Assembly (NCBI GenBank): GCA_028277845.1 | Contig: JANQFL010000095.1 | Coordinates: forward strand, 1 to 58,833 | Length of the DNA: 58,833 nt | Direction of reading: 5' to 3' | Source of the DNA: Sneathiellales bacterium | GTDB lineage: Bacteria; Pseudomonadota; Alphaproteobacteria; JANQFL01 | Part shown: positions 32,269 to 58,833 of the stretch, one piece after another | How the letters are laid out: every line of letters begins with the position of its first letter | Numbering within the stretch: position 1 is the stretch's first letter | Notes under the pieces: model-generated | What the model was told of the DNA's origin: nothing | The model's input: the letters and a program-made list of their open reading frames with translations, nothing else | Database searches by the model: none | Position numbers and translations under genes: made by a program

Positions 32269-32297
32269 GCCGCCGGCGGCCCCGTGCCGCCGGCGGT
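32269..32297 (+). repeat. Paired self-complementary GCCGCCGGCGGC repeats after ccoP
   Basis: GCCGCCGGCGGC at 32269-32280 and the near-copy GCCGCCGGCGGT at 32286-32297 lie five bases apart. Each is its own reverse complement or nearly so, and together they can form a very stable hairpin. There is no U tract, so a simple intrinsic terminator is not shown; it may stabilise the ccoNOQP transcript end or separate it from ccoGHIS. Confidence 0.55.
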
Positions 32298-32380
32298 CAC
32301 TGATCGCAGGCGATTAACCGGGCTTGTGGGGAGGAAGGGTCCGGTAACCGCGTTGACAAGGATTTTCCGGGGATCAAGCG

Positions 32381-34344: not shown

Positions 34345-34353
34345 CGGCCTTGC

Positions 34354-41947: not shown

Positions 41948-42001
41948 ACGGCTTGAAGGCTTTCGAAAACGGCAACGGGTAGAATCCCGGCGGAATCCCA
42001 C

Positions 42002-42160: not shown

Positions 42161-43756
42161 ATGCCTTTGCGTCCCGTAGCGTCAAATACAGAGATTCAAT
42201 CCAAGGCTGCCAACACCGACAAGCCCGATCGTGCCCGCGATAAGATCCGGTCCGTCGAAGAGTTGGCTGAAATTGCCGAACATGCCCGCCAGAGCGGTCG
42301 TTCCGTTGTCTTGGCCCATGGTTGCTTCGACCTGATGCATATGGGCCATGTCCGCCATCTGGAAGCGGCGCGTGAAGAAGGCGATATGCTCTTTGTGACG
42401 CTCACAACGGACCGCTACATCAACAAAGGGCCGGGGCGGCCTGTATTTCCGGAACTCTTCCGGGCCGAAATGATCGCCGCTTTAGAATGTGTCGACTATG
42501 TCGGTGTGAGCAATTGGCCGACCGCCGAAGGCGTGCTGCGGCTGGTCAAGCCCGGCGTGTACGTCAAGGGCTCCGATTACAAAAACGAAAACGACGACAT
42601 TACCGGCAAAATCAAGAACGAGCGGGATATCGTCGAATCCAACGGTGGCCGTATCGCCTTTACCGACGACATCACGTTTTCCTCATCGGCCCTGATCAAC
42701 AGGCATCTGTCGGTCTTCGACCCGTCGGTCAACGCCTATCTCGGCGAACTGCGCCAGGCCGACGTCATGGAACAGGCCATGGAAGCCCTGGAAGCCATTC
42801 AGGACAAGCGGGTTTTGCTGATCGGCGACGCCATCATAGACGAGTATCAATACGCCGCGCCCATGGGCAAGTCGGCCAAGGAAAATATCATCGCCAGCCG
42901 ATTCGAAAGCAGCGAAATCTTTGCCGGCGGCGTGGTCGCTGCGGCCAATCATGTGGCCGATTTCTGTGCCGAAGTCGAAGTCATGACCGTTCTTGGCGAG
43001 ACGGACTCCCACGAGGGCCTGATCCGTGACAGCCTGAAAAGTAACGTCAACGCGGACTTTCTGGTGCGTCACAACGTGCCGACTACCCGTAAGTGCCGTT
43101 TCGTCGACCCGGGCCACATGCGCAAACTGTTCGAGGTCTATCACTTCGACGACAGCCAGTTGGAAAGCCGCCAGGAGCAGCAGCTGTGTGACCTGATCGC
43201 CCGCAAGGCCGGCGATTTCGACGTGGTCATCGTGACCGACTTCGGGCACGGCATGATCACGCCGAAGGCGATCGACGCGATTACGGAAAACAGCCAGTTT
43301 CTCGCCATCAACGCGCAATCCAACAGCGCAAACCATGGTTACAACCTGGTCACCAAGTACAAGCGGGCCGACTACATTTGTATCGATGCGCCGGAGGCCC
43401 GTTTGGCCATTGCAGACCGCACCAGCGACCTTGGCGACGTTATCGAGTTTGGTCTCTCCGACCGGGTCAATTGCGACAAGATCATCGTTACCCATGGTCA
43501 GAACGGCTGTGTCACATGGGCCTTGGGCGATGGTGTGCACCGGGTGCCGGCGTTTACGCAGCAGGTGGTGGATACGGTCGGTGCCGGCGACGCGTTCCTA
43601 TCGATTACGGCCCCTGTGGTCTCGGTGGGTACGCCCATGCAGGTCGCCGGGTTCATCGGCAATGCGGTAGGCGCGCTGAAGGTCGGCATCGTCGGTCATC
43701 GGGAATCGGTGCAAAAAGTGCCGTTGATGAAGTTCATTACGGCATTATCAAAGTAA
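42161..43756 (+). CDS. Bifunctional nucleotidyltransferase / PfkB-type sugar kinase, reversed HldE order
   Basis: 531 residues with two enzymes in one chain. The N-terminal cytidylyltransferase-like domain shows AHGCFDLMHMGHVRHL (about 52-67) and VKGSDYKNE. The C-terminal PfkB domain begins near residue 213 (RVLLIGDAIIDEY) and ends with DTVGAGDAFLSI. HldE, which makes ADP-heptose, has the kinase first and the nucleotidyltransferase last, so the order here is reversed. The next gene is GmhA-like, which supports a heptose-type substrate. It opens a cluster before flagellin genes. Confidence 0.88.
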   Translation: MPLRPVASNTEIQSKAANTDKPDRARDKIRSVEELAEIAEHARQSGRSVVLAHGCFDLMHMGHVRHLEAAREEGDMLFVTLTTDRYINKGPGRPVFPELFRAEMIAALECVDYVGVSNWPTAEGVLRLVKPGVYVKGSDYKNENDDITGKIKNERDIVESNGGRIAFTDDITFSSSALINRHLSVFDPSVNAYLGELRQADVMEQAMEALEAIQDKRVLLIGDAIIDEYQYAAPMGKSAKENIIASRFESSEIFAGGVVAAANHVADFCAEVEVMTVLGETDSHEGLIRDSLKSNVNADFLVRHNVPTTRKCRFVDPGHMRKLFEVYHFDDSQLESRQEQQLCDLIARKAGDFDVVIVTDFGHGMITPKAIDAITENSQFLAINAQSNSANHGYNLVTKYKRADYICIDAPEARLAIADRTSDLGDVIEFGLSDRVNCDKIIVTHGQNGCVTWALGDGVHRVPAFTQQVVDTVGAGDAFLSITAPVVSVGTPMQVAGFIGNAVGALKVGIVGHRESVQKVPLMKFITALSK

Positions 43757-43781
43757 GATATGAAATAATCTTCTTAAATAT

Positions 43782-44396
43782 ATGAAAAATAGAACAGAAT
43801 CATACTTTGAAGTGCTGACTTCCCTACCGTTACGGAGTCAGGTGACCGACGCCTCCGGACGGCATCTCGAGCTTAATGGCTTTTTCGAGCAAGCCTGCGT
43901 TCTGGCAAGGCAGACGCACGACTCCGGAAACACACTGATGTTCATCGGCAATGGTGGCAGTGCGGCGATTGCCAGCCACATGGCCAACGATTTTTGCAAG
44001 AACGGGAAGATGCGGGCGGTCTGTTTCAACGATGGCGCTGCCTTGACATGTCTCGGAAACGATTACGGTTATGACGAGGTGTTTGCCTATCCCATCGGTT
44101 TGCACGGTAACGCCGGCGACCTGCTGGTCGCCATCTCCAGTTCCGGCAATTCCCAGAACATTCTCAATGGCGTGAACGCCGCGCGGGAACGCGGCATACA
44201 CGTCATCACTCTGTCGGGATTTCAGCCCGACAACAAACTCCGCAAGCTCGGCGACTACAACGTCTACGTTCCCTCGGGCGAGTACGGCTTCGTCGAGGTG
44301 ACCCACCAGGCGCTGTGCCATGCCTTCATCGATCTCGTCATGGGATGGGGTCAGGCAGCCGGCGATGACAACAAACCAGTGAGACTCTCGGCATGA
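43782..44396 (+). CDS. SIS-domain sugar isomerase, GmhA-like
   Basis: 204-residue SIS-fold protein. FIGNGGSAAIASHMANDF matches the active-site region of phosphoheptose isomerase GmhA, which converts sedoheptulose 7-phosphate to a heptose 7-phosphate. A second SIS signature, LLVAISSSGNSQNIL, binds the sugar phosphate. It lies just after the kinase-nucleotidyltransferase fusion and overlaps the epimerase gene by four bases. It may be specific to the modification sugar rather than LPS heptose. Confidence 0.88.
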   Translation: MKNRTESYFEVLTSLPLRSQVTDASGRHLELNGFFEQACVLARQTHDSGNTLMFIGNGGSAAIASHMANDFCKNGKMRAVCFNDGAALTCLGNDYGYDEVFAYPIGLHGNAGDLLVAISSSGNSQNILNGVNAARERGIHVITLSGFQPDNKLRKLGDYNVYVPSGEYGFVEVTHQALCHAFIDLVMGWGQAAGDDNKPVRLSA

Positions 44397-45400
44397 CAAA
44401 CGAAAACAAACAGTGGTCCGTCCTCGTTACCGGTGGCGCCGGCTATGTCGGCAGCATGCTGGTGCCCAAACTGCTCGATGCCGGGCACAAGGTCACGGTA
44501 TTGGACCTGTATCTCTATGGCGACGACACGTTCGGGGACCTCAAGGGACGTGATGGCCTGCGCGAAGTCAAAGGTGATCTGCGGGATCCCGCCGTTGTCC
44601 AGGATGCATTGACGGGATGCGATGCCGTCATTCATTTGGCCTGCATCTCCAACGACCCAAGCTTCGAATTGAACCCGAATTTGGGTAAATCAATCAATTT
44701 CGATGCGTTCGAGCCGTTGGTGAAAGCGTCCAAGGCCGCCGGTGTGAAGCGTTTCATCTACGCCTCGTCGTCGAGCGTTTACGGCATCAAGGACGAAGCC
44801 AGTGTCACCGAGGATCTGGAGTTGGAGCCGTTGACGGATTACTCCAAATTCAAGGCCATGTGCGAGGACGTGCTGGAGCGGGAGCGGGAGCCCGGCTTCG
44901 TCACCCTGACCATCCGCCCGGCTACGGTCTGCGGCTATGCGCCGCGGCTACGCCTGGATTTGACGGTCAATATTCTGACCACCCATGCCGTCAACAACGG
45001 CAAGATCACGGTGTTCGGCGGCGACCAGAAGCGTCCCAATATTCACGTCGAGGACATGACGAACCTGTATCTGCACTGTCTGGCGTTACCCGACGAGCGG
45101 ATTGACGGTGGCATCTATAACGCGGGTTACGAAAACCACACCGTCGGTCAAATCGCCGAAATGGTGCGCGATGTGGTCGGCAAGGATGTGGATATCGTCA
45201 CCACGCCGACGGATGACAATCGGTCCTACCACGTGTCTTCGGAAAAACTGAAGCGCGAGCTTGGTTTCGAGCCGGTGCATACCATCGGTGACGCGGTACA
45301 GAGCCTGGTCGACGCTTTCGATGCCGGCAAAGTGACCGATCCGATGCAGAACAAGGTCTACTACAATATCAAGACCATGCAGGCGGTCCATCTGACCTAG
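44393..45400 (+). CDS. NAD-dependent sugar epimerase/dehydratase (SDR)
   Basis: 335-residue extended SDR enzyme. The Rossmann start VLVTGGAGYVGSMLVPKLL, a catalytic serine region YASSSSVYG and the YSKFK motif (Tyr-x3-Lys) are all present, along with the RPATVCGYAPRLR substrate segment. It acts on nucleotide sugars, but whether as epimerase or dehydratase cannot be told. It is the third gene of the sugar cluster and is followed by a gap of 113 bases. Confidence 0.9.
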   Translation: MTNENKQWSVLVTGGAGYVGSMLVPKLLDAGHKVTVLDLYLYGDDTFGDLKGRDGLREVKGDLRDPAVVQDALTGCDAVIHLACISNDPSFELNPNLGKSINFDAFEPLVKASKAAGVKRFIYASSSSVYGIKDEASVTEDLELEPLTDYSKFKAMCEDVLEREREPGFVTLTIRPATVCGYAPRLRLDLTVNILTTHAVNNGKITVFGGDQKRPNIHVEDMTNLYLHCLALPDERIDGGIYNAGYENHTVGQIAEMVRDVVGKDVDIVTTPTDDNRSYHVSSEKLKRELGFEPVHTIGDAVQSLVDAFDAGKVTDPMQNKVYYNIKTMQAVHLT

Positions 45401-45513
45401 CGATCTGGTGGGGACAACCCCGTGACAAACCGCTTCTAAGAGCCGGATTTTAAGCGAAAATTTACCGTAACGCTTCAGGCTGACAGACGGGAACGTTAAC
45501 CGTCTGGACAGCC

Positions 45514-46137
45514 ATGCGAATCGGCGTCGACTTTGACAATACCATTGCGGGTTATGACCGGCTGTTTGCTTCGCTTTCGGTGGAGCACGGTTTTTTCGAT
45601 GCACCGCCGGCCGGCGGCAAGAAGGCCGTGCGGGACCGGGTGCGCGAAAGCCATGGCGACATCGCCTGGCAGGATCTTCAGGCACAGGCCTATGGACATC
45701 GCATGTCGGAGGCCGAAATGTTCAGGGGCGTCACGCGCTTCTTCGCTTTGTGTCGCGAATCCCACATTCCGGTCTATATCGTCAGTCACAAGACCCAGTT
45801 TGCCAGCCGCGATACGAACGGAACCGATCTGCGCTGTGCGGCACTGAACTGGATGGAAAATCGCGGATTTTTCGAATACGCCGGTTTTGGTCTGTCCACC
45901 GACAATGTGTTTTTCGAGGACACGCGCAACGAAAAGATCGCGCGCATCGCATCGCTCAACTGCGATGTCTTCATCGATGACCTGATCGAGGTGTTCTCCG
46001 AGCCGTGCTTCCCCGGTGATATCTCAGCCATTTTGTTCTCTCCCGATGGCGAAGAGGCGCCGTCGCCGGTGCCCCTGTTCAAGGCGTTCTCCCATTGGGA
46101 CGAAATTTCCGATTATGTCTTCGGCGTTCGACACTGA
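45514..46137 (+). CDS. HAD-superfamily hydrolase
   Basis: 207 residues with the HAD nucleophile motif DFDNT at residues 6-10, a second motif near VSHKTQF, and DDL near the third motif (VFIDDLIEVF). Probably a sugar-phosphate phosphatase for the pathway encoded around it. The start has no strong ribosome-binding site, but the reading frame begins with the typical MRIGVDFDNT. It overlaps the kinase-like gene that follows by 23 bases. Confidence 0.82.
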   Translation: MRIGVDFDNTIAGYDRLFASLSVEHGFFDAPPAGGKKAVRDRVRESHGDIAWQDLQAQAYGHRMSEAEMFRGVTRFFALCRESHIPVYIVSHKTQFASRDTNGTDLRCAALNWMENRGFFEYAGFGLSTDNVFFEDTRNEKIARIASLNCDVFIDDLIEVFSEPCFPGDISAILFSPDGEEAPSPVPLFKAFSHWDEISDYVFGVRH

Positions 46138-47155
46138 CACATTGATTGCGGACGCGGCGGTTCTGGCGGGTGGAGACATCCTGGCTCTGGAACCGGTGGC
46201 GCGTGGTGGGAACAACCGCCTTTTCCGCCTGCGCACCGCCGACGGCAATGCCTATGCGCTCAAAACCTATCTGCCGGCTTTGGCCGGAGAGCGGGACCGC
46301 CTGGGAGCCGAGTGCGCGTCGCTGGCGTTCCTGCAGGATGCCGGTGAGCGGCGCATTCCCCGTTTCCTCAACGCCGCGCCGGAAAAGAACCTGGCCCTGT
46401 TCGATTGGGTGTCCGGTGACGAAGTATCAGAGATTTCCGAGGCCGATATCGATGAAACGGTGTCTTTCAGCGCATCCTTGAAACAGGTCGCTGCTAGGGC
46501 TGCCGCGCGGGCACTTCCGCTGGCGGCGGAAGCCTGTTTGTCGGCTGATGAACTGATCAGACAGGTCAAGCGGCGTTATGAACGCTTGTCGGAAGTTTCC
46601 GCCGATCACGGTGAATTGGAACAGTATCTTCAATCGGATTTCAAACCGGTGTTCGACGACCGGACCGCCAGTGCCGAAGCGGTTTACGAGGCGCTCGGCT
46701 GGTCCATGTCGGACATCACGCCGTGGACGCTGCTGACCCTGTCGCCGTCCGATTTCGGGTTCCACAATGCCTTGCGCCAGCGCGAAGGGCTGGTGTTTCT
46801 GGATTTCGAGTATTTCGGCTGGGATGATCCGGTCAAACTGGTCGCCGATTTCCTCCTGCACCCCGGCATGTCGCTCAGCGACCGGCAGCGTCGGCGTTTC
46901 ATCGACGGCACCGAGGCGGTCTTCGAAGACGATCCCGATTTCCGCATGCGCCTGTGCCAGCTTTATCCGCTCTACGCCTTGCGTTGGGCGATGATCGTGC
47001 TGAACGAATTTCTGCCTGAAAAATGGCGCCGGCGTGAATTCGCGGGTCACGACGTCGAGCGTGAATCGGCGCAACGCCGGCAACTCGAAAAAGCCAAACG
47101 TTTCCTGGCGCTGGCCATCAGCGCCAACGAGGGAGGAGTACTGTATGATGCCTAA
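46115..47155 (+). CDS. APH/choline-kinase-like phosphotransferase
   Basis: 347 residues of the aminoglycoside phosphotransferase fold: a small lobe with GNNRLFRLRTADGNAYALK and a catalytic stretch SPSDFGFHNALRQ followed by LVFLDFEYFGWDDP, where the aspartates bind metal and ATP. The usual HxD is here SxSD, a common variation. In this context it probably phosphorylates a sugar rather than an antibiotic. The start at 46115 lies inside the HAD gene; the transketolase gene begins inside its last codons. Confidence 0.82.
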   Translation: MSSAFDTDTLIADAAVLAGGDILALEPVARGGNNRLFRLRTADGNAYALKTYLPALAGERDRLGAECASLAFLQDAGERRIPRFLNAAPEKNLALFDWVSGDEVSEISEADIDETVSFSASLKQVAARAAARALPLAAEACLSADELIRQVKRRYERLSEVSADHGELEQYLQSDFKPVFDDRTASAEAVYEALGWSMSDITPWTLLTLSPSDFGFHNALRQREGLVFLDFEYFGWDDPVKLVADFLLHPGMSLSDRQRRRFIDGTEAVFEDDPDFRMRLCQLYPLYALRWAMIVLNEFLPEKWRRREFAGHDVERESAQRRQLEKAKRFLALAISANEGGVLYDA

Positions 47156-48005
47156 CGCCCAAGCCGTCGCCGAAGCGCAGGCGGCGTTTAACCGGACGGA
47201 GCTGGACGAGAGATCGCTCTATCTGCGCCGGCTGATCGTCGACGGTCTCGACGGCGGTGGCCGGGGACACCTGGGCTCGGCGTTTTCCGCAATCGATGTC
47301 ATGCGCGTTCTGTACGACGACATCCTGCATGTCGACCCGAACAATCCCGACATGCCGGATCGTGACCGCTGCATCCTGTCGAAGGGACATGGCTGTCTGG
47401 CCCACTATGCGATCCTGGCCGACAAGGGATTCTTCGATACCGCCGAGTTACGCAAATTCTGCCACTTCGACGGCATCCTCGGCGGGCATCCGGACGCCGG
47501 CAAGGTACCGGGCGTCGAAGCGTCGACCGGCGCATTGGGGCACGGCCCCTCCATCGCCGTCGGCATGGCGCTGGGCGCCCGTCTGCAGGGCCGGGACAAC
47601 CGCGTGTTCGTCGTGACCGGTGACGGCGAAATCAACGAGGGTTCGGTCTGGGAAGCGGCCATGAGCGCCGGCAAGCACGGCCTCGACAATCTCGTCGTCA
47701 TCGTCGACTACAACAAACACCAGTCCTATGCCTCGACGGCCATCGTGCAGGACCTGGAACCGCTGGCCGACAAATGGCGGGCCTTCGGCTTTGCCGTGCA
47801 GGAAGTCGACGGCCACGACGTCGACGCCGTGCGCGCGGTGTTGCAGGGCGTGCCGTTCGAGAAAGGCAAGCCCAATGCCGTGATCAGTCATACGGTGAAG
47901 GGCCGCGGCATCTCCTTTGCCGAGAACAATATGGAATGGCATCACAAGTCGCGGGTTCCGGCGGAGCAACTGGAAGAGATTTACCGCGAGTTGGGAGGAC
48001 GGTAA
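47145..48005 (+). CDS. Transketolase, N-terminal (thiamine diphosphate-binding) subunit
   Basis: 286-residue first half of a split transketolase. HLGSAFSAIDVMRVLY and the thiamine diphosphate/magnesium motif GDGEINEGSVWEAAMSAGKH, with a matching asparagine in DYNKHQSY, are clear. Such split enzymes transfer two-carbon units between sugars. Two adjacent ATGs (47145, 47148) follow GGGAGGAG at 47131-47138. The C-terminal half is encoded directly downstream after three bases. Its place in a sugar cluster suggests a dedicated role rather than the pentose phosphate pathway. Confidence 0.9.
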   Translation: MMPNAQAVAEAQAAFNRTELDERSLYLRRLIVDGLDGGGRGHLGSAFSAIDVMRVLYDDILHVDPNNPDMPDRDRCILSKGHGCLAHYAILADKGFFDTAELRKFCHFDGILGGHPDAGKVPGVEASTGALGHGPSIAVGMALGARLQGRDNRVFVVTGDGEINEGSVWEAAMSAGKHGLDNLVVIVDYNKHQSYASTAIVQDLEPLADKWRAFGFAVQEVDGHDVDAVRAVLQGVPFEKGKPNAVISHTVKGRGISFAENNMEWHHKSRVPAEQLEEIYRELGGR

Positions 48006-48008
48006 GAC

Positions 48009-48944
48009 ATGCGCAAGACATGCCTCAACATGGTCTACGAACTGGCCAAGCGCGATCCCCGCGTGGTGTTCGTGGGGTCCGATCTCGGGGTGAACACCCT
48101 CGATCAGTTCCGCGACGAAATGCCCGACCGCTTCTTCATGGAAGGCGTGGCCGAACAGAACGTCATCGGCATGGCCGCCGGCCTGGCAATGGAAGGGTAC
48201 ATTCCCTACGTCAACACCATCGCCACGTTCATCACCCGGCGTTGTTACGAGCAGGTCGCCGTCGATCTGTGCATGCACAATCTGCCGGTCAAGCTGATCG
48301 GTAATGGCGGCGGCCTGGTCTACGCGCCTCTCGGCCCGACCCATCTGGCGACCGAAGACGTCTCCATCATGCGCGCGCTTCCCAACATGACCGTCACCGC
48401 GGTCAGCGATGCCGAGGAAATGACCCGTCTGATGGCGGCGTCCCTGACCCACGAAGGACCCATGTACATCCGTCTGGGCAAGGGCGGTGATCCCGTGGTG
48501 TCGCGGGAGGAGAACGGCTTCAGCATCGGTAGGGCCGTCCAGATGAAACCCGCCGGCCGTTATTTGATGATTTCGTCGGGTGTCATGACCGGCCGGGCAC
48601 TTGACGCCGCCAAGCTTCTGGAAGATCAGGGCATCGATTGCGGCGTTCTGCACGTCCACACCATCAAGCCTCTCGACGCCGAAACCATTCTTTCCCTGGC
48701 CCGCAAGGTCGACGGTATCGTCACGGTGGAAGAGGGCACATTGGTCGGCGGTCTCGGCAGTGCCGTGGCCGATCTGCTGATCGACGAGATGCCGGGACGG
48801 GCGCCGGCTCTGGTGCGTCTCGGCATTCCCGATCGCTTTCCCGAAAAGTACGGCAGCCAGGACGAACTGCTGGCCCATTTCGGCCTGCAGCCCGCCGGTA
48901 TCGCGGCCGCCGTGGAAGGTTTTGTCGGAAAGATCGCGGCATGA
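48009..48944 (+). CDS. Transketolase, C-terminal (pyrimidine-binding) subunit
   Basis: 311-residue second half of the split transketolase. The pyrimidine-binding domain has EGVAEQNVIGMAAGLAMEG, with the glutamate that activates the cofactor. The C-terminal domain shows MYIRLGKGGDP and LEDQGIDCGVLHVHTIKPLD. It forms the heterotetramer with the preceding subunit. It overlaps the oxygenase gene by four bases (ATGA), so it is firmly in the sugar operon. Confidence 0.9.
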   Translation: MRKTCLNMVYELAKRDPRVVFVGSDLGVNTLDQFRDEMPDRFFMEGVAEQNVIGMAAGLAMEGYIPYVNTIATFITRRCYEQVAVDLCMHNLPVKLIGNGGGLVYAPLGPTHLATEDVSIMRALPNMTVTAVSDAEEMTRLMAASLTHEGPMYIRLGKGGDPVVSREENGFSIGRAVQMKPAGRYLMISSGVMTGRALDAAKLLEDQGIDCGVLHVHTIKPLDAETILSLARKVDGIVTVEEGTLVGGLGSAVADLLIDEMPGRAPALVRLGIPDRFPEKYGSQDELLAHFGLQPAGIAAAVEGFVGKIAA

Positions 48945-49825
48945 CCGCACAGCCCAAGATCGTCAGACCGGACGCGATGGCCAATCCGTGCGCACCGGAC
49001 ATGGTGGGCGACGTCGACGGCTTTCTCGACGCTTGGGAAGTCCAACTGACCCGGGCCTTCCTGTCGGAAGGGCATGTGGTATTGCCGGTGGAGGACCGTG
49101 CCGGACTCAAGAAACTGCGCAACGGTATCGCCGCGGCGGCCGCAGATTACATGGGCGAACCGGCACCCGAAGGCGAAGACGTCGACGGTTTCCTGAACAC
49201 CATCCACGACAAGGTGGATGTCGCCGGACTGAATGATTTCCGGCTCAAGGTCATCGGTCAAATCAGCGCCATGCCGTGGGCCCGCAAGACATACTTCAAT
49301 CTGGCCCGCAGGGCGCTGGAAACCATCGTCGGCAATGAACTGGCCATGCAGCGGCGCCTGAACCTGTCGATCCAGCTGCCCGGCGATGACAGCTCGTTGC
49401 TGCACGTGCATGCCGATGTCTGGGATGGTGATTCGCCGTTCGAGGTGGTGGCCTGGCTGCCCCTGGTCGACTGTCACGATACCAAGAGCATGTACCTGCT
49501 GCCGCCCGCCGCCGCCCGTGGCGTGGAAAAGGACTTTTCGCAGTTCCAGAACAAAAGCGCCGACGCCTTGTTCGATGTGATCAAGAACGACGTCGCCTGG
49601 TTGACCGTACCTTATGGATCGATTTTGCTGTTCAGCCAGAACCTGATGCACGGCAACGAGGTCAACCGGGAAAGCGAGACACGCTGGTCCATGAACTGCC
49701 GCTTCAAGAGCCTGTTCAGTCCCTATGCGGGCAAACGGCTAGGTGAATTCTTCGAACCCATATCCATTCGCGCCGCCACCCGGCTGGGCATGAACTACAA
49801 GTTCCCGGAAGGCCTGCATGAATAA
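48941..49825 (+). CDS. Sporadic-carbohydrate-cluster 2OG-Fe(II) oxygenase-like protein
   Basis: 294 residues with an HxD metal site in LLHVHADVWDGD, a later histidine in NLMHGNEVNRE and a basic residue in ETRWSMNCRFKSLF, the layout of 2-oxoglutarate/iron oxygenases. I recall it as the oxygenase family of the sporadic carbohydrate cluster set (named from memory). It is followed, with an eight-base overlap, by the partner protein of that set. It may oxidise or rearrange the sugar. Confidence 0.82.
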   Translation: MTAQPKIVRPDAMANPCAPDMVGDVDGFLDAWEVQLTRAFLSEGHVVLPVEDRAGLKKLRNGIAAAAADYMGEPAPEGEDVDGFLNTIHDKVDVAGLNDFRLKVIGQISAMPWARKTYFNLARRALETIVGNELAMQRRLNLSIQLPGDDSSLLHVHADVWDGDSPFEVVAWLPLVDCHDTKSMYLLPPAAARGVEKDFSQFQNKSADALFDVIKNDVAWLTVPYGSILLFSQNLMHGNEVNRESETRWSMNCRFKSLFSPYAGKRLGEFFEPISIRAATRLGMNYKFPEGLHE

Positions 49826-50225
49826 GCGTTTCGGATACCGGGGTTACATCGCCAGCCGGCCGGTGCGCGGCCTCGATCAGCCGCAGAACGTGCAGAACCT
49901 TGTCATCCGTGACTATGCGCAACGCAATGGTCTGCCCTATCTGCTGAGCGCCACGGAATATGCCATGGACGGCTGCTACATGATCTTGGAATCCGTGCTT
50001 GAAGAACTGCCCAAGATCGAAGGCATCATGTGTTACAGCCTGTTCATGTTGCCGCAGAAACAGGACCGCCGCATGGACATCTACGACCGGGTGTTCCGTG
50101 CCGGCGCTGCGTTGCATGGCGCGCTGGAAAACATGGCGCTAACCGGCGAAGCCGACATGCATAAGGTCGAGGATATGTTCCTGGTGGAACAATTCGCGCC
50201 GCAACAGGTGCCGATGGGGCTCTGA
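49818..50225 (+). CDS. Sporadic carbohydrate cluster protein, LIC12192-like
   Basis: 135-residue protein starting MNKRFGYRGYIASRPV, with VQNLVIRDYAQRNGLPYLLS and SATEYAMDGCYMILE. This pattern fits the LIC12192-type protein of the sporadic carbohydrate clusters, as recalled; the function is unknown and no catalytic motif is plain. It overlaps the oxygenase gene and precedes a methyltransferase gene by four bases, as expected of a conserved gene pair. Confidence 0.8.
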   Translation: MNKRFGYRGYIASRPVRGLDQPQNVQNLVIRDYAQRNGLPYLLSATEYAMDGCYMILESVLEELPKIEGIMCYSLFMLPQKQDRRMDIYDRVFRAGAALHGALENMALTGEADMHKVEDMFLVEQFAPQQVPMGL

Positions 50226-50229
50226 CACC

Positions 50230-50892
50230 ATGGCCGAGATCGATTTCATCACCCGGGTGCACACCGCGACCAAACGGGATTACCTGGAACGGGTCGTCGA
50301 GCACGACAAGGCGGAATGCGCCGAAATCGCCGGCCGGTTCGGCAAAGACTACTGGGATGGCGACCGGCGCCACGGCTTCGGCGGTTACCGTTATGACGGC
50401 CGATGGAACGTGGTGGCCCAGGCCATGGTCGATCATTACGGCCTGAAACCGGACGCCAGTATTCTCGATGTCGGTTGCGGCAAGGGTTTTCTGCTCTACG
50501 AATTCACGCGGATCCTGCCGCAGGCCACGGTCGCCGGTATCGATGTGTCCGCATACGGCATTGAGAACGCCAAGGAAGAGGTTCAGCCGTTTCTTCAGGT
50601 CGGAAATGCCAACAGCTTGTCGTTCGAGGACGACAGCTTCGATCTCGTCGTTTCGATCAACACATTTCACAATCTCTACAATTACGACCTGCATGCTGCG
50701 CTGTCCGAGATGCAGCGTGTCTCCCGCGGATCCGCCTATCTCACCGTGGAGTCCTACCGGACCGAACGGGAGAAGGTGAACTTGATGTATTGGCAGTTGA
50801 CCTGCCGTGCCTTCATGACGCCTGCCGAGTGGCAGTGGGCGTTTCAGCAGGCCGGATATACGGGCGACTGGGGATTTATCTATTTCGAATAA
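50230..50892 (+). CDS. SAM-dependent methyltransferase, cluster type
   Basis: 220-residue class I methyltransferase. Motif I is ILDVGCGKGFLLYEF, motif II is near VAGIDVSAYGIENAK and the acidic loop near DDSFDLVVSINTFHNLYN. No signal or membrane segment. It probably methylates the sugar or its precursor, since every neighbour on this strand is a sugar enzyme. It starts four bases after the preceding gene. Confidence 0.87.
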   Translation: MAEIDFITRVHTATKRDYLERVVEHDKAECAEIAGRFGKDYWDGDRRHGFGGYRYDGRWNVVAQAMVDHYGLKPDASILDVGCGKGFLLYEFTRILPQATVAGIDVSAYGIENAKEEVQPFLQVGNANSLSFEDDSFDLVVSINTFHNLYNYDLHAALSEMQRVSRGSAYLTVESYRTEREKVNLMYWQLTCRAFMTPAEWQWAFQQAGYTGDWGFIYFE

Positions 50893-50918
50893 GCCGGTCG
50901 GCTGACAGAGAAAACACT

Positions 50919-51611
50919 ATGAGCCAGTCAAACGCGACACGGACCGTCGAGGCCCAGTATGAAGATTGCCTGACCGTGGATGAAGTCCACGGCCGGGCGC
51001 GATTCGGTGTCATGAGCAACCAGGTATGGCACGACGATCCAAAACGTCTGGTGTTCGTTTTGTCCCGCTATAAATTCGTGGCCAAGATGCTGGCGGGACG
51101 CAACCGGGTGCTCGAGGTCGGCTGCGCCGACGCATTCGGTACCCGTTTGGTGCAGGCCGAGGTCGGCCGGGTGACGGCGTTGGATATGGATCCGTTGTTT
51201 ATCGCCGACGCCAGGGACAACATGGATCCGGATTTCCGCATCAACCTGGATGTCCACAATATGCTGGACGGACCGTATTCCGGTACCTTCGACGCCGCCT
51301 ACAGCCTGGATGTGCTGGAACACATCGACCGGAAAGATGAAACCCGCTTTCTTGCCAACATATCCGCGTCTCTGTCCGACCAGGGAACGTTGATTATCGG
51401 CATGCCGTCGCTCAGTTCCCAGGAACACGCTTCGCCGCAAAGCAAGATCGGTCATATCAATTGCAAGCACGCGCCCGACCTGAAGGCGCTGTTGGAGCGG
51501 TTCTTCCACAATGTCTTCATCTTCTCGATGAACGACGAAGTCGTGCACACGGGCTTTTATCCCATGTCCCACTACTATTTTGCCCTGTGTTGCGGTAAAC
51601 GGGACACGTGA
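50919..51611 (+). CDS. SAM-dependent methyltransferase
   Basis: 230-residue class I methyltransferase. Motif I is RVLEVGCADAFGTRLVQ, the acidic residue after the second strand is in TALDMDPLF, and the catalytic-side loop is SLDVLEHIDRKDE. It differs clearly from the methyltransferase just upstream. The start at 50919 is preceded by a purine-rich stretch. It overlaps the reductase gene by four bases. Confidence 0.85.
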   Translation: MSQSNATRTVEAQYEDCLTVDEVHGRARFGVMSNQVWHDDPKRLVFVLSRYKFVAKMLAGRNRVLEVGCADAFGTRLVQAEVGRVTALDMDPLFIADARDNMDPDFRINLDVHNMLDGPYSGTFDAAYSLDVLEHIDRKDETRFLANISASLSDQGTLIIGMPSLSSQEHASPQSKIGHINCKHAPDLKALLERFFHNVFIFSMNDEVVHTGFYPMSHYYFALCCGKRDT

Positions 51612-52477
51612 TCGAAAACTTACGCGTTCTTATTGTCGGCGAGGGATTGATCGGCGGCGCACTCGCCAAGGGGCTCGCGCGTCGGGGTGCCCGTATTGTC
51701 CGAACATCACGCAGGCCGGACGCACCAGAAGATTTTCTGCGTCTCGATCTGGCTCGAGTCAACGAATGGCCCGATGCATGGCCTGACTTGCCTCAATTCG
51801 ATGCCGCTGTCATATGCGCCGCGATGGCCAGGCTGGGGGATTGCGATGCGGATCCGGATCTCAGTCACCGTGTCAACGTCACCGGCGCCGTCGCGCTTGC
51901 CGAGAGGTTGGCGGGGCAGGGGGCGCATGTCGTATTTCTGTCCACCGACAAGGTCTACGATGGCTCCGAGCCGCTTAGGCGTCGCATCGTACCGCCCAAT
52001 CCGCTGACGGAATACGGAAGGCAGAAAGCGCTGGCCGAAGAAGGCGTGCTCGACGCCGGAGACCGTACCGCCGTCGTTCGACTCAGCAAGGTGCTGTCGC
52101 CCGATCTGCCTTTGCTGGTGGACTGGCGCCAGAATTTGCGTCAGGGACAACGCATCACACCTTTCGACAACCTGCGTCTGGCGCCGGTCGATTGCGGGCT
52201 GGTGTCGGAGGTGATCGAAAAGGTCCTTACCCAGAACCGCGCGGGTATCTTTCATTGTACGGGAGGCGAGGATCGTAGCTATGTCGATCTTGCGTCCAGG
52301 CTATGCCGGTTGTGGCAGGCCGATGAGGCGTTGATCACGCCGGTGTCATCCGCGGCGCCCGAAGCGCACCGGTCACGGTTCACGACACTGGATATGAGCT
52401 TGGAATCGGTGTTGTTCGATATCGAACAGCCGGCGTTCGAGAAGGTCGTCGATCGGGTCGGAAAGGACGTATCCTAG
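51608..52477 (+). CDS. RmlD-like nucleotide-sugar reductase (SDR)
   Basis: 289-residue SDR enzyme with VLIVGEGLIGGALAKGLARRG at the start (NADPH site), FLSTDKVYDG and the YGRQK active-site pair. It resembles dTDP-4-dehydrorhamnose reductase, so it may reduce a keto group late in sugar synthesis. GTG start overlapping the methyltransferase stop. Its stop codon shares the palindrome CTAG with the stop of the opposing gene. Confidence 0.85.
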   Translation: MIENLRVLIVGEGLIGGALAKGLARRGARIVRTSRRPDAPEDFLRLDLARVNEWPDAWPDLPQFDAAVICAAMARLGDCDADPDLSHRVNVTGAVALAERLAGQGAHVVFLSTDKVYDGSEPLRRRIVPPNPLTEYGRQKALAEEGVLDAGDRTAVVRLSKVLSPDLPLLVDWRQNLRQGQRITPFDNLRLAPVDCGLVSEVIEKVLTQNRAGIFHCTGGEDRSYVDLASRLCRLWQADEALITPVSSAAPEAHRSRFTTLDMSLESVLFDIEQPAFEKVVDRVGKDVS

Positions 52478-53514
52478 CTTCCGTCGTCAAACTTTGGGTT
52501 GACCGCCGTCAGTATGCCGTCGCTGGTCGTGAAGTTGCCCCACAATGTCGCATGTTCAGCGAGCGGCAGAAAATCGAACACTTGTCGCCACCCTCTGTCT
52601 TGCAACAGGGCACGCAATTCAACGTGAATATCCCGCGAATGCGTCCCAATGTGCACGCGCTTCACGCGGTCTTCGATCATATCGATGCTGGCCGGTATGA
52701 CCGCGTGTTCGGCGTACTGAATGTCCACATCGAGATAGTCGACGAAATCCAATGGCTGTAGCAACGTATTCAGCGTCACGGCGCTGATAAATCCGATTTG
52801 CAGTGGTACTTTGCCGTAGAAGTCGTCGTCGATCGTGAATTCGGTGCCGATGTCGGCGTGCCGCAGCAGATTGCCAAGAATGGAATGGGACAGGTTCAGG
52901 CGGTCGATATTACCCAGAATTTCCTCGATCGCCTTGTCATTGACGATCATATTGCAGTACCGCCCGGCTGCATGCACGAAGAGTTCGGGCATACCCGTCG
53001 CGTTGACCAGAGCAGGCACGAACCAATGTCCGTTGGGATCGGCACCGTTGAATTTGAAATGCTCCTGCGCCCAGGCAAAGTGCTGACGTTCGCCTTCGAC
53101 AACGACAAACTTGCGGGGCACGGGATTGCAATAGTCCAGGGCGGCGTTGGCGTTGACGGAGCGTGCCGCATAACCGGCACCCAATTCAATCATCGTGAAT
53201 GAATTTCGCGCCGAGCGTACCGCGGCCAGTACATCGATCCACTCGAAAAACTCCTCGCCGTCACAGACTTCCGGATGATGCATTCTGACGTCGTAGGCGC
53301 CGTTTTCCGCATAGGCATATAACTCACGTTCATTGCCGATCAGAAAATCTTGCGATCGCAGTACCCCGAGAAAATTTGCCACGTAACCGGAAGGAACGTT
53401 ACCGGACCAAGGCACAATGTCCTCGAATATGGCTTCGTATTTCTTGATGGACTGCTGATTTTCCTCGATCGACTCGCATTGTGTGAGGTCGATCTCGGCT
53501 GCCGGTTCATTCAT
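52474..53514 (-). CDS. FkbM-like methyltransferase-type protein
   Basis: 346 residues. FTMIELGAGYAARSVNANAAL is the SAM-binding motif, followed by FVVVEGERQHFAWAQEH and a distal DYLDVDIQYAEHAVIP, which is the FkbM-type arrangement. It probably O-methylates a sugar or glycan. The start at 53514 overlaps the stop of the glycosyltransferase gene by four bases, so both are in one operon running towards the sugar cluster. Confidence 0.82.
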   Translation of the reverse strand: MNEPAAEIDLTQCESIEENQQSIKKYEAIFEDIVPWSGNVPSGYVANFLGVLRSQDFLIGNERELYAYAENGAYDVRMHHPEVCDGEEFFEWIDVLAAVRSARNSFTMIELGAGYAARSVNANAALDYCNPVPRKFVVVEGERQHFAWAQEHFKFNGADPNGHWFVPALVNATGMPELFVHAAGRYCNMIVNDKAIEEILGNIDRLNLSHSILGNLLRHADIGTEFTIDDDFYGKVPLQIGFISAVTLNTLLQPLDFVDYLDVDIQYAEHAVIPASIDMIEDRVKRVHIGTHSRDIHVELRALLQDRGWRQVFDFLPLAEHATLWGNFTTSDGILTAVNPKFDDGS

Positions 53515-56468
53515 GACCGGTACTCCTCGGCCAATGGTACGCGTATCGTCTGCGGCGCATTGCCCTCTTCGTGGTTGGCCCACATGAGCCGGTAAGCCTC
53601 CTCCAGATGCCGGGTCAGGCGTTCGGCATCGAACAAGGCGGCGGTTTCGATATTGACTTTCAGTTTCTGCTTGATCGCGGCCAGACGGTCGGGGTCGGTT
53701 GCCAGCTCATAAGCCAATTCTTCGTATTCTTCTATGCTTTCGGTGACGAGTTCTTCCAGACCAACGGCCGTCAGCAGGGTCGCGCCGTTGCGGGAAGGCG
53801 GGCTGTCGCCGGCGACTGTCAGAACGGGGGTGCCGACCCAGAGAGAATCCGTCGTCGTGACGCCACCGCCGTGGTAGAGGTTGTCGAGCGCCAGGCCGAC
53901 CAACCGCTGCCGCGATAAATGGAATTCATGTTTGATGGACTCGGCGAAGATCAGGCGGTCCGGGGCGACACCGCGTACCTCGGCTTCACGGCGCAAATTG
54001 GCTCGGCTGACTTCGGTACCCTGAATCAACCAAAGCACACTGTCCGGAATGCGTTTCAATAGACGCATCCAGATGCTGAACATCTTCGGATCGAACTTGT
54101 AGTGGGAATTGAAGTTGGCGAATACGAAGCCGTTTTCCGGTAACCCGCAGCCTTCTCGTGTGACGGGATCCGGATCGATCTTCGATTTGGTCGTGGCCAT
54201 GAACGTGTCGGGAAGATAAACGAGTTCCTCGGCGAAGTACTGTTCCATGCCGGGCTTCACCTGGCGCGGATCGGTGATCAGGTACTGGATGTAATCTCCA
54301 CCGACCGTGGACGAATAGCCCAGATAATGGGCCTGGATGGGGGCCGGCTTGAGGGCGAATATGCCGGGCCGCGAAAATCGTGTCGGTCCGGCCAGGTCGA
54401 TGAGAATGTCGATGCCGTCGTCGTAGATCAGTTTTGCCGCGTCTGCCAGCGACGCTTTGCTGATGTCGTGAAACCGGTCGAAGTTTTCAGCAAAATACTC
54501 GGTCATCTCGTCCTTGGCGACGGGAGACAGGGAATAGCCGCAATATTCGAATTCATCCCGGCTGTGTCGCTCCAACAGACCTTTGAATGCGACGGCAACC
54601 GAATGGAAGCGGAAATCCGGTGACACATAGCCGACACGGATCTTGTCCTTCGGCATGCGGTTGCCGTGATCGAAGTGCAGACCTTCGCTGATGCCTTTGA
54701 CGGCCATGGCCGTACGTCTGGCGGCGGCCTTGGCGACTCCGTGGCGCAAATCCATCGAGGCGGACGTGCACAGCAACTCGAAACCGGTTATGGCCGGAAT
54801 GCGGTCGGCGTCGATATCCTGCTGCGCCAGGGAAATCATGCGGTCGGTGACGGCTTCCAGATTCGTCCAATTGCAGGTTTGCATGAGCGAATGGGCGAGG
54901 TAGGAATAGGCAATCCGGTATCCTGGCCGGGCTTCCAGCGCCTTTTTGAAGGTCACCACCGATTCGTCGAACCGGCCCATGACCTGCAGAACATTGCCGA
55001 GATTGAACAGGACTTCGGGTTGGTCCGGATAATCGGACAACAGGTCCCGGTAGACCTCAAGCGCATCGAAATAGTGTCCGAGTGCCTGATAGGCGAGCGC
55101 CAGATTGTTCCGGGCTTCCAGATGCTTGGGTTTCAGCTCGATCGCGGATTTGAAGTATTTGACCGATTCTTCGTGCCGCGCCTGATTGTTGAGCAGCAAT
55201 CCCAGTGTGTTGTGAATGTTGGGCGAATCGGGAATACGTTGCAGTCCTTCGTCGAGGACCTTGTATGACTCGTCAAAGCGCCCCGCTTCCCGCAAGGCGT
55301 TGCCGAGGTTGCTCACCGCCATTTCAAATGTCGGCTCCAACGCGACGGCACGGGAATAGGCTTTGATGGCGTCGTCTTTGCGTTGCAAGGATGACAACGA
55401 ATTGCCGAGGCTGTTATGGAGCAGAATGTTGTCGGGCCATTTGGTGAGGCCGGCTTCCAAGATCTCGATCGCTTCGCCGAATTTGCTGTCTGCGTGCAGG
55501 GTTGCGCCCAGATTGTTGTAGATGTCCGCGATGGAATCGTTCAGTTCCAGGGCGCGCCTGAAATACTTGGTGGCTTTTACCCACTTTTTCTTGGCATGGA
55601 ACAAATTCCCAATGTGAAAGGCGGTGCTTGTTTCATCGGACGTTTGATCGAGATATGCGTCGAACAGGGCAATCGCGCCCTTTTCATCGCCGCCGTCGTA
55701 CAGAAGCTGGGCCAGTCCGTTTACGGCGTCGAGATGTTCCGGCTGCAGCTCAAGCACTTTGCGGAACAGTGTTTCCGCTTCTGAACCACGGCCTTGATTG
55801 CGGGTCAGCAAGGCCAGATTGAAATAGGCCTGCGGCCATTCCGGTCTGCTGTCGATCGCTGCCCTGTAGTGCTCTTCGGCTTGCTCCGACTTGCCCATAT
55901 GGGTTTGGACGTTGGCCAAATTCGAGCGGATTTCCGGGTCGTCCGGTTCGTGCTTCAAGGCTGTTTCGAATGCCTGTTCGGCGTCCTCGACCTTGCCCAG
56001 GTGCCAGTAGGCGACTCCCAGGCTGCTGTGGACCTGGCCTTGACTGTCGTCCAATTTAAGCGCCTGCTGCAGACAGGGGACTGCGTCCTCATGCCGGCCC
56101 TGGGCCGAAAGCAGATTGCCGAGATTGGAATGCACTTGCGGCAGCATCGGATTGACCGCCAAAGCTTTGCGATAGCAGTCTTCCGCTTCATCAAATCTGC
56201 CTTGAACCTGGCGCAGATTTCCGAGATTCGTCAGGGTGTCGGGCTCGGACGGCAGGATTTCGAGAATTTTCTCGTAGCACACCGCGGCGCTGTCCAAATC
56301 GCCGTCGGCCGCGGTCAAGGCGGCCAAGTTGAACAGGGCGCCGATGTGATTCGGGTTGATTTCGAGCGCGTGAAGGTAATGTTGTGCCGCCTCGGAATGT
56401 TGACCTGCTCGGTGATACGCCAGGGCACTCGTGAACAGGGAATCAAAATCTTGTGCAATCTCGGACAT
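53511..56468 (-). CDS. TPR-containing GT41 (O-GlcNAc transferase-like) glycosyltransferase
   Basis: 985-residue soluble protein. About 15 tetratricopeptide repeats fill residues 10-570; the catalytic domain of the O-GlcNAc-transferase (GT41) type lies at about 600-970. It shows KIRVGYVSPDFRFHSVA, the FANFNSHYKFDP segment and DNLYHGGGVTTTDSLWVG, the UDP-site region. The TPR part should bind protein acceptors. Caulobacter FlmG, a flagellin glycosyltransferase, has the same layout. The nearest protein gene beyond its promoter is flagellin, so flagellin is the likely acceptor. Confidence 0.9.
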   Translation of the reverse strand: MSEIAQDFDSLFTSALAYHRAGQHSEAAQHYLHALEINPNHIGALFNLAALTAADGDLDSAAVCYEKILEILPSEPDTLTNLGNLRQVQGRFDEAEDCYRKALAVNPMLPQVHSNLGNLLSAQGRHEDAVPCLQQALKLDDSQGQVHSSLGVAYWHLGKVEDAEQAFETALKHEPDDPEIRSNLANVQTHMGKSEQAEEHYRAAIDSRPEWPQAYFNLALLTRNQGRGSEAETLFRKVLELQPEHLDAVNGLAQLLYDGGDEKGAIALFDAYLDQTSDETSTAFHIGNLFHAKKKWVKATKYFRRALELNDSIADIYNNLGATLHADSKFGEAIEILEAGLTKWPDNILLHNSLGNSLSSLQRKDDAIKAYSRAVALEPTFEMAVSNLGNALREAGRFDESYKVLDEGLQRIPDSPNIHNTLGLLLNNQARHEESVKYFKSAIELKPKHLEARNNLALAYQALGHYFDALEVYRDLLSDYPDQPEVLFNLGNVLQVMGRFDESVVTFKKALEARPGYRIAYSYLAHSLMQTCNWTNLEAVTDRMISLAQQDIDADRIPAITGFELLCTSASMDLRHGVAKAAARRTAMAVKGISEGLHFDHGNRMPKDKIRVGYVSPDFRFHSVAVAFKGLLERHSRDEFEYCGYSLSPVAKDEMTEYFAENFDRFHDISKASLADAAKLIYDDGIDILIDLAGPTRFSRPGIFALKPAPIQAHYLGYSSTVGGDYIQYLITDPRQVKPGMEQYFAEELVYLPDTFMATTKSKIDPDPVTREGCGLPENGFVFANFNSHYKFDPKMFSIWMRLLKRIPDSVLWLIQGTEVSRANLRREAEVRGVAPDRLIFAESIKHEFHLSRQRLVGLALDNLYHGGGVTTTDSLWVGTPVLTVAGDSPPSRNGATLLTAVGLEELVTESIEEYEELAYELATDPDRLAAIKQKLKVNIETAALFDAERLTRHLEEAYRLMWANHEEGNAPQTIRVPLAEEYRS

Positions 56469-56640: not shown

Positions 56641-56760
56641 TTGGAGGCAGATTTTTCCCATTAACCATAACTGATATTGGCCGTTTGGCACGAATTTTGA
56701 TTAGAAAAAACACTATAAAAAACAATGCGTTATCGAGAATTTTCTCCGTTTGGCACGGTT

Positions 56761-56776
56761 TGGCACGGCGGTTGCC
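56761..56776 (+). promoter_or_regulatory. Sigma-54 promoter of the first flagellin gene
   Basis: TGGCAC-GGCGG-TTGC matches the -24/-12 consensus of RpoN promoters exactly, with correct spacing. Transcription would start about 56786-56788, leaving a leader of about 75 bases before the flagellin ATG at 56863. Class IV flagellin genes in Caulobacter relatives use this sigma factor. Confidence 0.88.
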
Positions 56777-57730: not shown

Positions 57731-58156
57731 ATGGCCTTAAAAGTAACCCTCAAGCCCGGTGAGAAGTTCGTCATCAACGGCGCGGTCGTCGTCAACGGCG
57801 ACCGACGCGCCAATTTGGTGATCCAGAACAAGGTCTCGATCCTGCGGCAGAAAGACATTCTGTTGCCCGAGGAAGCCGACACACCGGTAAAACGCATCTA
57901 CTTCGCCGTCATGATGATGTATCTGGAGGAAAAATCCCATGCGGAATTCCACCAGGAGTTTATGCAGCGCATGACGGAGTTCATCGATGCTATCAGCGAC
58001 CGCGACGCGCTGCATCAATGCCTCCAGATCATCGAACACGTGAATTCCGGAGAGTATTACAAGGCGCTCATGGGTTGCCGCGTATTGTTACCGTTTGAGA
58101 AGAAGAGACTGGAATATGTCGCTCCAAGCTTACCAGAACACGCAGAATGCAACTGA
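57731..58156 (+). CDS. flbT: Flagellin mRNA regulator FlbT
   Basis: 141-residue RNA-binding regulator. The family start MALKVTLKPGEKFVINGAVV, the NGDRRANLVIQNKVSILRQKDI block and the helical C-terminal half are clear. In Caulobacter FlbT binds flagellin mRNA leaders and promotes decay until the hook is finished. It lies between flagellin and flaF, the order known from many alphaproteobacteria. It is translated from a start preceded by a stable hairpin (see the separate entry). Confidence 0.93.
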   Translation: MALKVTLKPGEKFVINGAVVVNGDRRANLVIQNKVSILRQKDILLPEEADTPVKRIYFAVMMMYLEEKSHAEFHQEFMQRMTEFIDAISDRDALHQCLQIIEHVNSGEYYKALMGCRVLLPFEKKRLEYVAPSLPEHAECN

Positions 58157-58454
58157 AGATCCGCGTATGACCGAGTACCGGTTGATGGCCAACGTCACCA
58201 ACGCGCTGATTGATGTCGAAGGCAAGGATGGCCCGGAGTTCTACCAGGCCGTGGATTGGAACCGCCGGGTCTGGCTGAATTTCCAGGTCGACCTGGCCTC
58301 GGAAGAAAACGCCTTGCCCGATGACCTGAAGGCCCGGCTGATTTCCGTCGCCATCTGGGTCGACAAGCATTCTACCCGGGTCTTGCGCGGCGAAGACAAG
58401 ATCACGCCGCTGATCGACGTGAACCGGACCATCATGGAAGGCTTGGCCGCCTGA
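58116..58454 (+). CDS. flaF: Flagellar protein FlaF
   Basis: 112 residues with the FlaF-type segments RMTEYRLMANVTNAL, NRRVWLNFQVDLASEENALPDDLKARLIS-like sequence and the SVAIWVDKHS helix. FlaF helps translate or export flagellin and works against FlbT in Caulobacter. The ATG at 58116 lies 41 bases before the end of flbT, so the genes overlap and are co-translated. No catalytic motif is expected. Confidence 0.92.
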   Translation: MSLQAYQNTQNATEDPRMTEYRLMANVTNALIDVEGKDGPEFYQAVDWNRRVWLNFQVDLASEENALPDDLKARLISVAIWVDKHSTRVLRGEDKITPLIDVNRTIMEGLAA

Positions 58455-58556: not shown

Positions 58557-58633
58557 GCCAAGTCAAACACGGTAAACAAGCCATTAATGTAATAAAAACA
58601 ATAAGTTATAGGCTCTTCGCCACTAGGTAATTT

Positions 58634-58649
58634 TGGCACGGGCATTGCT
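58634..58649 (+). promoter_or_regulatory. Sigma-54 promoter of the second flagellin gene
   Basis: TGGCAC-GGGCA-TTGCT is an exact -24/-12 match with the correct five-base spacing. Transcription would start near 58659, about 60 bases before the second flagellin ATG at 58720. Confidence 0.88.
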
Positions 58650-58719: not shown

Positions 58720-58833
58720 ATGGCTTTTTCAGTAAATACCAATCAGGGGGCGATGATCGCCCTCCAGAACCTGAACACCACGGGCATGGCCCTGGAAAAG
58801 ACCCAGCTCCGTATTACCACGGGTCTGAAGGTC
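58720..58833 (+). CDS. Second flagellin, N-terminal part (cut by window end)
   Basis: The first 38 codons of a second flagellin: MAFSVNTNQGAMIALQNLN, then EKTQLRITTGLKV, nearly the same as the first flagellin with a few substitutions. The reading frame runs off the window. AAGGGGAG at 58707-58714 is its ribosome-binding site. Two flagellin genes in tandem, each with its own sigma-54 promoter, are common in this lineage. Confidence 0.93.
   Translation, partial: MAFSVNTNQGAMIALQNLNTTGMALEKTQLRITTGLKV

Follow-up and report, generated by a model that had tools for sequence, protein, structure and literature searches.

A candidate flagellin O-glycosylation locus with a heptose-type sugar gene set in a Sneathiellales bacterium

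The locus and its setting

The DNA under study is contig JANQFL010000095.1 (contig label C97) of a Sneathiellales bacterium, taken from assembly GCA_028277845.1. We refer to the whole stretch of 58,833 nt as the window. In the genome collection this genome is the sole representative of its order, and comparisons were made at the level of the class, across 385 genomes.

A set of eleven sugar-type genes (ten, plus a glycosyltransferase of family GT41) and three methyltransferase-like genes sits between a gene for an SBBP beta-propeller protein (39239-42001) and a flagellin gene that starts at 56863 (table 1). From position 42161, the start of the HldE-like gene, the plus strand is close-packed with few gaps, from a nucleotidyltransferase-PfkB fusion to an RmlD-like reductase. 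A gap of 113 bases follows the short-chain dehydrogenase/reductase (SDR) gene on its 3' side, so two transcription units are possible. The remaining two genes of the set lie on the minus strand and overlap by 4 nt: an FkbM-like methyltransferase and the GT41 glycosyltransferase with tetratricopeptide repeats (TPR-GT41), which starts at 56468 and is separated from fliC by 394 bases. That is, a glycosyltransferase and sugar-synthesis genes adjoin fliC, the arrangement that marks a flagellin glycosylation island, and this arrangement is repeated in relatives.

Most of this layout had been described in a first-pass annotation of the same DNA. When gene positions were rechecked, its coordinates and gene list proved correct, as did its count of ten sugar-type and three methyltransferase-like genes, the spacing between GT41 and flagellin, and the presence of two flagellin genes, the second of which (58720-58833) runs off the end of the contig. 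Its label for the gene at 39239-42001, FlaEY, has no family-model support. We dropped that name because the match to NF047494 falls below its cut-off and PF06739 is matched, and we call the product an SBBP beta-propeller protein, which may act at the cell surface or in the flagellum. Elsewhere in the window there are genes of a Flp/Tad pilus (CpaB, secretin, CpaE-like and TadA ATPase; 16491-22480), and the region 29029-36693 holds a haem-copper oxidase subunit of the COX1 family, a FixG-like ferredoxin and a heavy-metal P-type ATPase.

Table 1. Genes and promoters of the locus, with positions in the window.
Feature	Position	Strand	Evidence and remarks
SBBP beta-propeller protein	39239..42001	-	PF06739 E 7.6e-22; NF047494 below cut-off; start uncertain; divergent from operon
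HldE-like fusion, reversed order: nucleotidyltransferase then PfkB kinase	42161..43756	+	PF01467 + PF00294
GmhA-like SIS-domain phosphosugar isomerase	43782..44396	+	SIS_2
SDR nucleotide-sugar dehydrogenase	44393..45400	+	nearest solved structure 6vo6, phmmer E 2.1e-38
HAD-superfamily phosphatase	45514..46137	+	fold and motifs
APH-like small-molecule kinase	46142..47155	+	PF01636 E 4.7e-4, below cut-off; start codon uncertain
Split transketolase, TPP-binding subunit (TktN)	47148..48005	+	PF00456; best PDB match 6yak, N chain, 2.9e-68
Split transketolase, pyrimidine and C-terminal subunit (TktC)	48009..48944	+	PF02779, PF02780; best PDB match 6yaj, 4.6e-59
TIGR04324 sporadic carbohydrate cluster 2OG-Fe(II) oxygenase	48941..49825	+	313.5 bits, cut-off 150
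TIGR04323 sporadic carbohydrate cluster protein (LIC12192 family)	49818..50225	+	153.2 bits, cut-off 55
SAM methyltransferase 1	50230..50892	+	PF13847 and others; in most core modules
SAM methyltransferase 2	50919..51611	+	PF13649; mainly in flagellar-type loci
RmlD-like NAD(P) sugar reductase	51608..52477	+	PF04321 7.3e-32
FkbM-like methyltransferase	52474..53514	-	assigned by eye
TPR-GT41 glycosyltransferase, 985 residues, presumed flagellin O-glycosyltransferase	53511..56468	-	PF13844 1.5e-80, 271 bits; many TPRs
Sigma-54-type promoter of fliC1	56759..56775	+	TTTGGCACGGCGGTTGC
Flagellin 1, 273 aa	56863..57684	+	PF00669, PF00700
FlbT	57731..58156	+	NF001995 above cut-off
FlaF	58167..58454	+	NF009435 above cut-off
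Sigma-54-type promoter of fliC2	58632..58648	+	TTTGGCACGGGCATTGC
Flagellin 2, first 38 codons	58720..58833	+	sequence; cut by contig end

Candidate enzymes for a heptose-type precursor

The early half of the set encodes sugar-phosphate and nucleotide-sugar enzymes. HldE proper has a kinase followed by a nucleotidyltransferase, whereas the fusion in the window has the reversed domain order; it scores 168 bits with the HldE model, against an equivalog cut-off of 521, and its HxGH and GAGD motifs are invariant among 86 sequences. Similarly, the GmhA-like isomerase reaches 101 bits with the gmhA model (equivalog cut-off 209), keeps the SIS fold, and its Ser and metal-site positions are conserved among relatives. 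Because both scores lie below the NCBIfam equivalog cut-offs, we treat the two proteins as relatives, rather than members, of the named families.

By phmmer, the solved structures nearest to the SDR are 6vo6 and 6vo8, the first of which we take to be Cj1427 of Campylobacter jejuni. Its Ser-Tyr-Lys residues are invariant in 83 sequences, and we regard the protein, on sequence similarity, as a putative Cj1427-like C4 dehydrogenase of an NDP-heptose; Cj1427 acts with bound NADH and 2OG. The gene at 45514-46137 has no Pfam match. Its AF2 model (pLDDT 94.8) is matched by Foldseek to HAD phosphatases and deoxyribonucleotidases, and DxDxT, S, K and DD are conserved in 80 sequences; by these motifs and the predicted model it is a HAD phosphatase. 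The APH-like kinase, at 20.4 bits (Pfam cut-off 23.2), is kept by most relatives.

Taken as families, the isomerase, C1 kinase, HAD phosphatase and nucleotidyltransferase correspond to each of the steps from a heptulose phosphate to an NDP-heptose. The phosphoheptose-like origin suggested in the first-pass annotation is supported by these four predicted activities, and by the dehydrogenase whose nearest structure is 6vo6.

The early half also contains a transketolase in two chains, both closest in a PDB search to the split transketolase of Carboxydothermus. The TPP and proton-relay positions (His, Asp, Asn and Glu) of the two chains are conserved in 89-94 of 92-97 sequences, and a transketolase step, also proposed earlier, is thus backed by a pair with all catalytic residues. 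The positions of the canonical H469 and D477 are occupied in TktC by G100 and L108, and this Gly and Leu are invariant in 95-96 of 97 sequences. The canonical residues presumably contact acceptor and phosphate (as in yeast transketolase), and the substitution suggests that the split enzyme likely uses a special acceptor.

A variant of the pathway proposed below, and one compatible with it, builds on these substitutions. The transketolase pair could give a two-carbon unit to a 4-keto group instead of making the C7 precursor, and the flagellin sugar would then be branched (C9). Besides the missing acceptor residues, the SDR is expected to yield a 4-keto intermediate, and sedoheptulose 7-phosphate normally comes from the housekeeping transketolase. 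However, in genomes where the locus is split the transketolase genes stay with the early, precursor half, which favours a role as precursor supplier; moreover, no branched product is known, and the residue roles are presumed from the yeast enzyme. On balance we consider the branched variant doubtful.

Two families of blank function and the late half

The oxygenase and the short protein that follow the transketolase genes belong to TIGR04324 and TIGR04323, which adjoin in their usual order and had both been missed in the earlier reading. NCBIfam names the two families ‘sporadic carbohydrate cluster’ and describes a function for neither, and the literature search found no paper that names them. 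The oxygenase has a metal triad (HxD...H) and an Arg that are invariant in 110 sequences.

The AF2 model of the TIGR04323 protein, built from 36 sequences, has a pLDDT of 91. Its best matches are the catalytic domains of serine recombinases (VIA Z up to 13.8): serine recombinases or putative relatives fill the top 32 rows, and the first clear non-recombinase has a Z of 7.2. Homology to recombinases at the level of sequence was rejected, since Pfam gives no Resolvase match and hhalign assigns a probability of 0.3% (with a small six-sequence profile). In 111 sequences there is no invariant Ser at the N-terminal loop, the position of the nucleophile; Q26, E47, P79, R85 and E104 are invariant in the same set. 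The protein is also too short to hold a DNA-binding domain. Judged from the model, TIGR04323 looks like a recombinase fold put to another use.

Late methylation and reduction, as the first-pass annotation had supposed, find support in the methyltransferase genes and the RmlD-like gene. The FkbM-like methyltransferase (52474-53514) has no Pfam or NCBIfam match; two homologues adjoin two GT41 genes on another contig of the genome (C37).

The GT41 gene combines N-terminal TPRs with a C-terminal glycosyltransferase, the combination expected of FlmG. Its catalytic part aligns with human OGT (E 2e-68) over both lobes. The middle of flagellin 1 is rich in Ser/Thr (18/46).

Recurrence of the core module

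We define the core module as the HldE-like fusion, GmhA-like isomerase, Cj1427-like dehydrogenase, HAD phosphatase, APH-like kinase, split transketolase, 2OG oxygenase, TIGR04323 and a methyltransferase. It occurs at dozens of loci in many Alphaproteobacteria and other phyla, mostly in polysaccharide contexts. TIGR04323 is above cut-off in 28 of the 385 genomes of the class. A species-level scan (one genome per species, one short pattern) gave 130 stretches that encode TIGR04323. Among the best 80 of these, roughly half of them from Bradyrhizobium and some truncated at a contig end, methyltransferase 1 is found in 74, the transketolase chains in 72 and 70, the APH-like kinase in 68, the HAD phosphatase in 61 and the fusion in 60.

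The order of genes is largely constant in Bradyrhizobium, Azospirillum, Terasakiella, Phaeospirillum, Reyranella and many MAGs, and is rearranged in an Oscillatoriales cyanobacterium, a Chitinophaga-labelled MAG and a Myxococcales MAG. The Azospirillum locus is flanked by GT2/GT4 and UDP-sugar dehydrogenase genes, and that of Bradyrhizobium by genes for a C-methyltransferase and a GFO/IDH oxidoreductase. Given these polysaccharide-type settings in Bradyrhizobium, Azospirillum and others, with no flagellin nearby, the core module itself is not specific to flagellin. Many non-photosynthetic Bradyrhizobium genomes carry the module. Frequent as the module is in Bradyrhizobium, it could not be matched to the bradyrhizose cluster, whose published description (PMC4743980) is limited to eleven genes with a dTDP-glucose 4,6-dehydratase, from photosynthetic strains.

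The first-pass annotation knew of no described pathway with this set of genes. In part this holds, as the combination was not found in the literature searched; two of its families do have names, however, and most of the set is widespread.

A flagellar branch

Flagellar settings were followed through the long GT41 proteins, that is, those longer than 950 aa (in the 385-genome count, a GT41 match above 600 bits). TIGR04323 is present in 10/11 genomes with a long GT41 and in 18/374 others (Fisher p 8e-12), a value that overstates independence because the 11 genomes fall in only six families. The HldE-like fusion is in 9/11 (p 7e-10) and was not found in G066. The co-occurrence of TIGR04323 and long GT41 holds also where the two are unlinked.

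A search for the set beside flagellin in related genomes, as the first-pass annotation had advised, finds TIGR04323, GT41 and flagellin in one stretch in the window and in eight further stretches. In G159, G193 and G286 the set is divided: the SBBP gene is the neighbour of the early half (fusion to transketolase), and GT41-fliC that of the late half (TIGR04324 to RmlD). In G186, G280 and G358 the long GT41 is divergent from fliC-flbT-flaF, as in the window, and the sugar module is elsewhere, beside SBBP. The claim of a flagellin linkage is strengthened by this recurring GT41-fliC-flbT-flaF unit and by its co-occurrence with the module even when unlinked. In a tree of TIGR04324 and TIGR04323 the flagellar-type sequences group together: the flagellar label requires 7 changes, where shuffled labels require 13.8. 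The flagellar branch has moderate support (84), and a single flagellar locus is placed outside it.

One genome, G043, has a long GT41 without TIGR04323. It carries an SBBP-linked locus in which an SDR and a methyltransferase accompany a fusion that has diverged (181 bits), perhaps a variant pathway that feeds the same GT41.

The SBBP gene raises the question of the target. It adjoins the HldE-like gene in ten genomes of the comparison (G159, G193, G286, G186, G280 and G358 among them), and lies next to the fusion in 9/9 long-GT41 genomes that have the fusion, the window included. In flagellar-type loci no gene accompanies the early half more constantly than SBBP, and this beta-propeller, or another surface protein, could be what GT41 and its sugar mainly act on, with flagellin a mere genomic neighbour. 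Against this, it is fliC-flbT-flaF that goes with the long GT41 from genome to genome, and GT41 and FkbM genes beside fliC are the established layout of a flagellin glycosylation island (PMC4875605). We therefore think it very unlikely that flagellin is a bystander.

Nonulosonic acids as a possible alternative sugar

The first-pass annotation had taken the lack of a NeuB gene as an argument for another sugar. A search of the genome agrees that there is none in the cluster or anywhere on C97, but finds four NeuB genes on other contigs. We reject the argument from absence, which fails because of these four genes and because the pseudaminic acid genes of Caulobacter are likewise scattered (PMC7591256).

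The main rival explanation starts here: the flagellin would bear a nonulosonic acid made by NeuB loci elsewhere in the genome, as in Caulobacter, and the cluster in the window would serve a surface polysaccharide or another protein. In particular, contig C37 pairs two NeuB genes and a cytidylyltransferase with two TPR-GT41 genes and the two FkbM-like homologues. (The locus, with its NTP- and CTP-transferases, also holds a deacetylase.) Across the class, NeuB is present in 172/385 genomes, a background of 45%, and is enriched with long GT41 (10/11 genomes vs 162/374 others; p 0.002), which leaves room for a nonulosonic acid on flagellin, instead of the heptose-type sugar or in addition to it.

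Several observations speak the other way. TIGR04323 is far more specific to long GT41 than NeuB is (odds ratios of about 198 and 13). No flagellin gene is seen on C37, and the only Flagellin_N match of the genome is on C97. Even where the early and late halves have separated, they remain beside SBBP and GT41-fliC. Finally, G358 has GT41-fliC and the module with no NeuB match, which argues that long GT41 does not require NeuB, with the caveat that this genome is 93% complete. A nonulosonic acid as the flagellin sugar, with the cluster serving something else, hence seems to us unlikely, if less so than the SBBP protein as main target.

Proposed pathway and its implications

Our preferred reading, to which we give a probability of roughly 0.6, is that the window contains a dedicated flagellin O-glycosylation locus, in which an NDP-heptose-type sugar is made, modified and put on flagellin by GT41. 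The enzyme set is conserved and looks built for a heptose-derived sugar, which GT41 probably attaches to flagellin. What was observed are the gene families, their catalytic residues, the layout of the operon, its recurrence and its association with the GT41-fliC unit. The substrates, the sequence of reactions, the identity of the product as a heptose and its attachment to flagellin are inferred from these, as follows.

The split transketolase would make or reshape a ketose phosphate, which the GmhA-like isomerase would convert to an aldose phosphate. The kinase domain of the fusion would then phosphorylate C1, the HAD enzyme would take off the terminal phosphate, and the nucleotidyltransferase domain would activate the sugar to an NDP-heptose-type product. 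Oxidation at C4 by the SDR would give an NDP-4-keto-heptose, to be modified by the TIGR04324 oxygenase, TIGR04323 and the methyltransferases; the placing of these between C4 oxidation and reduction is by analogy. The RmlD-like enzyme would be the final reductase of the 4-keto sugar. In the cytoplasm, the TPR part of GT41 would bind flagellin and the transferase part would link the sugar to Ser/Thr, and the sugar may be capped by the methyltransferase of FkbM type that is coupled to GT41.

New here are the sugar set, its recurrence with one GT41-flagellin unit and the assignment to it of two families of blank function. TIGR04323 and TIGR04324 thereby gain a defined pathway and a testable setting. 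The locus also points towards a flagellin sugar that is not a nonulosonic acid, a member of the sialic-acid-like family to which most reported sugars of bacterial flagella belong. It further suggests that a single sugar module is used for polysaccharides in Bradyrhizobium and Azospirillum and for flagellin in other organisms. A bolder form of the proposal, which is speculative and which we would not expect to hold in full, is that a branch of the Alphaproteobacteria decorates flagellin with a novel heptose-derived sugar, possibly two-carbon-branched by the split transketolase and built with a TIGR04323 protein of serine-recombinase fold that has lost the nucleophile and been recruited to sugar chemistry.

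Comparison with known systems

Enterobacterial flagellin glycosylation islands share with the window GT41 and FkbM genes that lie with sugar genes beside fliC. They differ in gene set and host group, and the text of PMC4875605 mentions no transketolase, heptose or dioxygenase.

FlmG of Caulobacter crescentus (PMC7591256) shares a cytoplasmic TPR plus glycosyltransferase architecture, and a flagellin with FlbT and FlaF. It has 596 residues and needs pseudaminic acid, whose genes are dispersed, for the most part at a distance from flmG; in the window, a GT41 of 985 residues stands next to a sugar cluster that lacks NeuB. The ‘same layout as FlmG’ of the first-pass annotation thus applies to the pairing of TPRs with a glycosyltransferase only, as the transferase part of FlmG is shorter (residues 309-596 of 596). 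At the level of the genome, Caulobacter does match PF13844.

The closest parallel in sugar chemistry is the GDP-D-glycero-heptose pathway of C. jejuni (PMC10680097, PMC7949155). There, Cj1427 introduces a keto group at C4 of GDP-manno-heptose, and once the sugar has been modified a C4 reductase completes the route (PMC10680097). Both sets include an isomerase, a C1 kinase, a phosphatase, a nucleotidyltransferase and a C4 dehydrogenase (putative in the window), with modification and a C4 reduction to follow. The C. jejuni pathway serves the capsule; its kinase and guanylyltransferase are separate enzymes, and it has a C3/C5 epimerase (PMC10680097, PMC7949155); no cupin epimerase was seen in the window cluster. 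What sets the window apart from C. jejuni is the reversed nucleotidyltransferase-kinase fusion, the split transketolase, the 2OG oxygenase, TIGR04323 and the flagellar setting.
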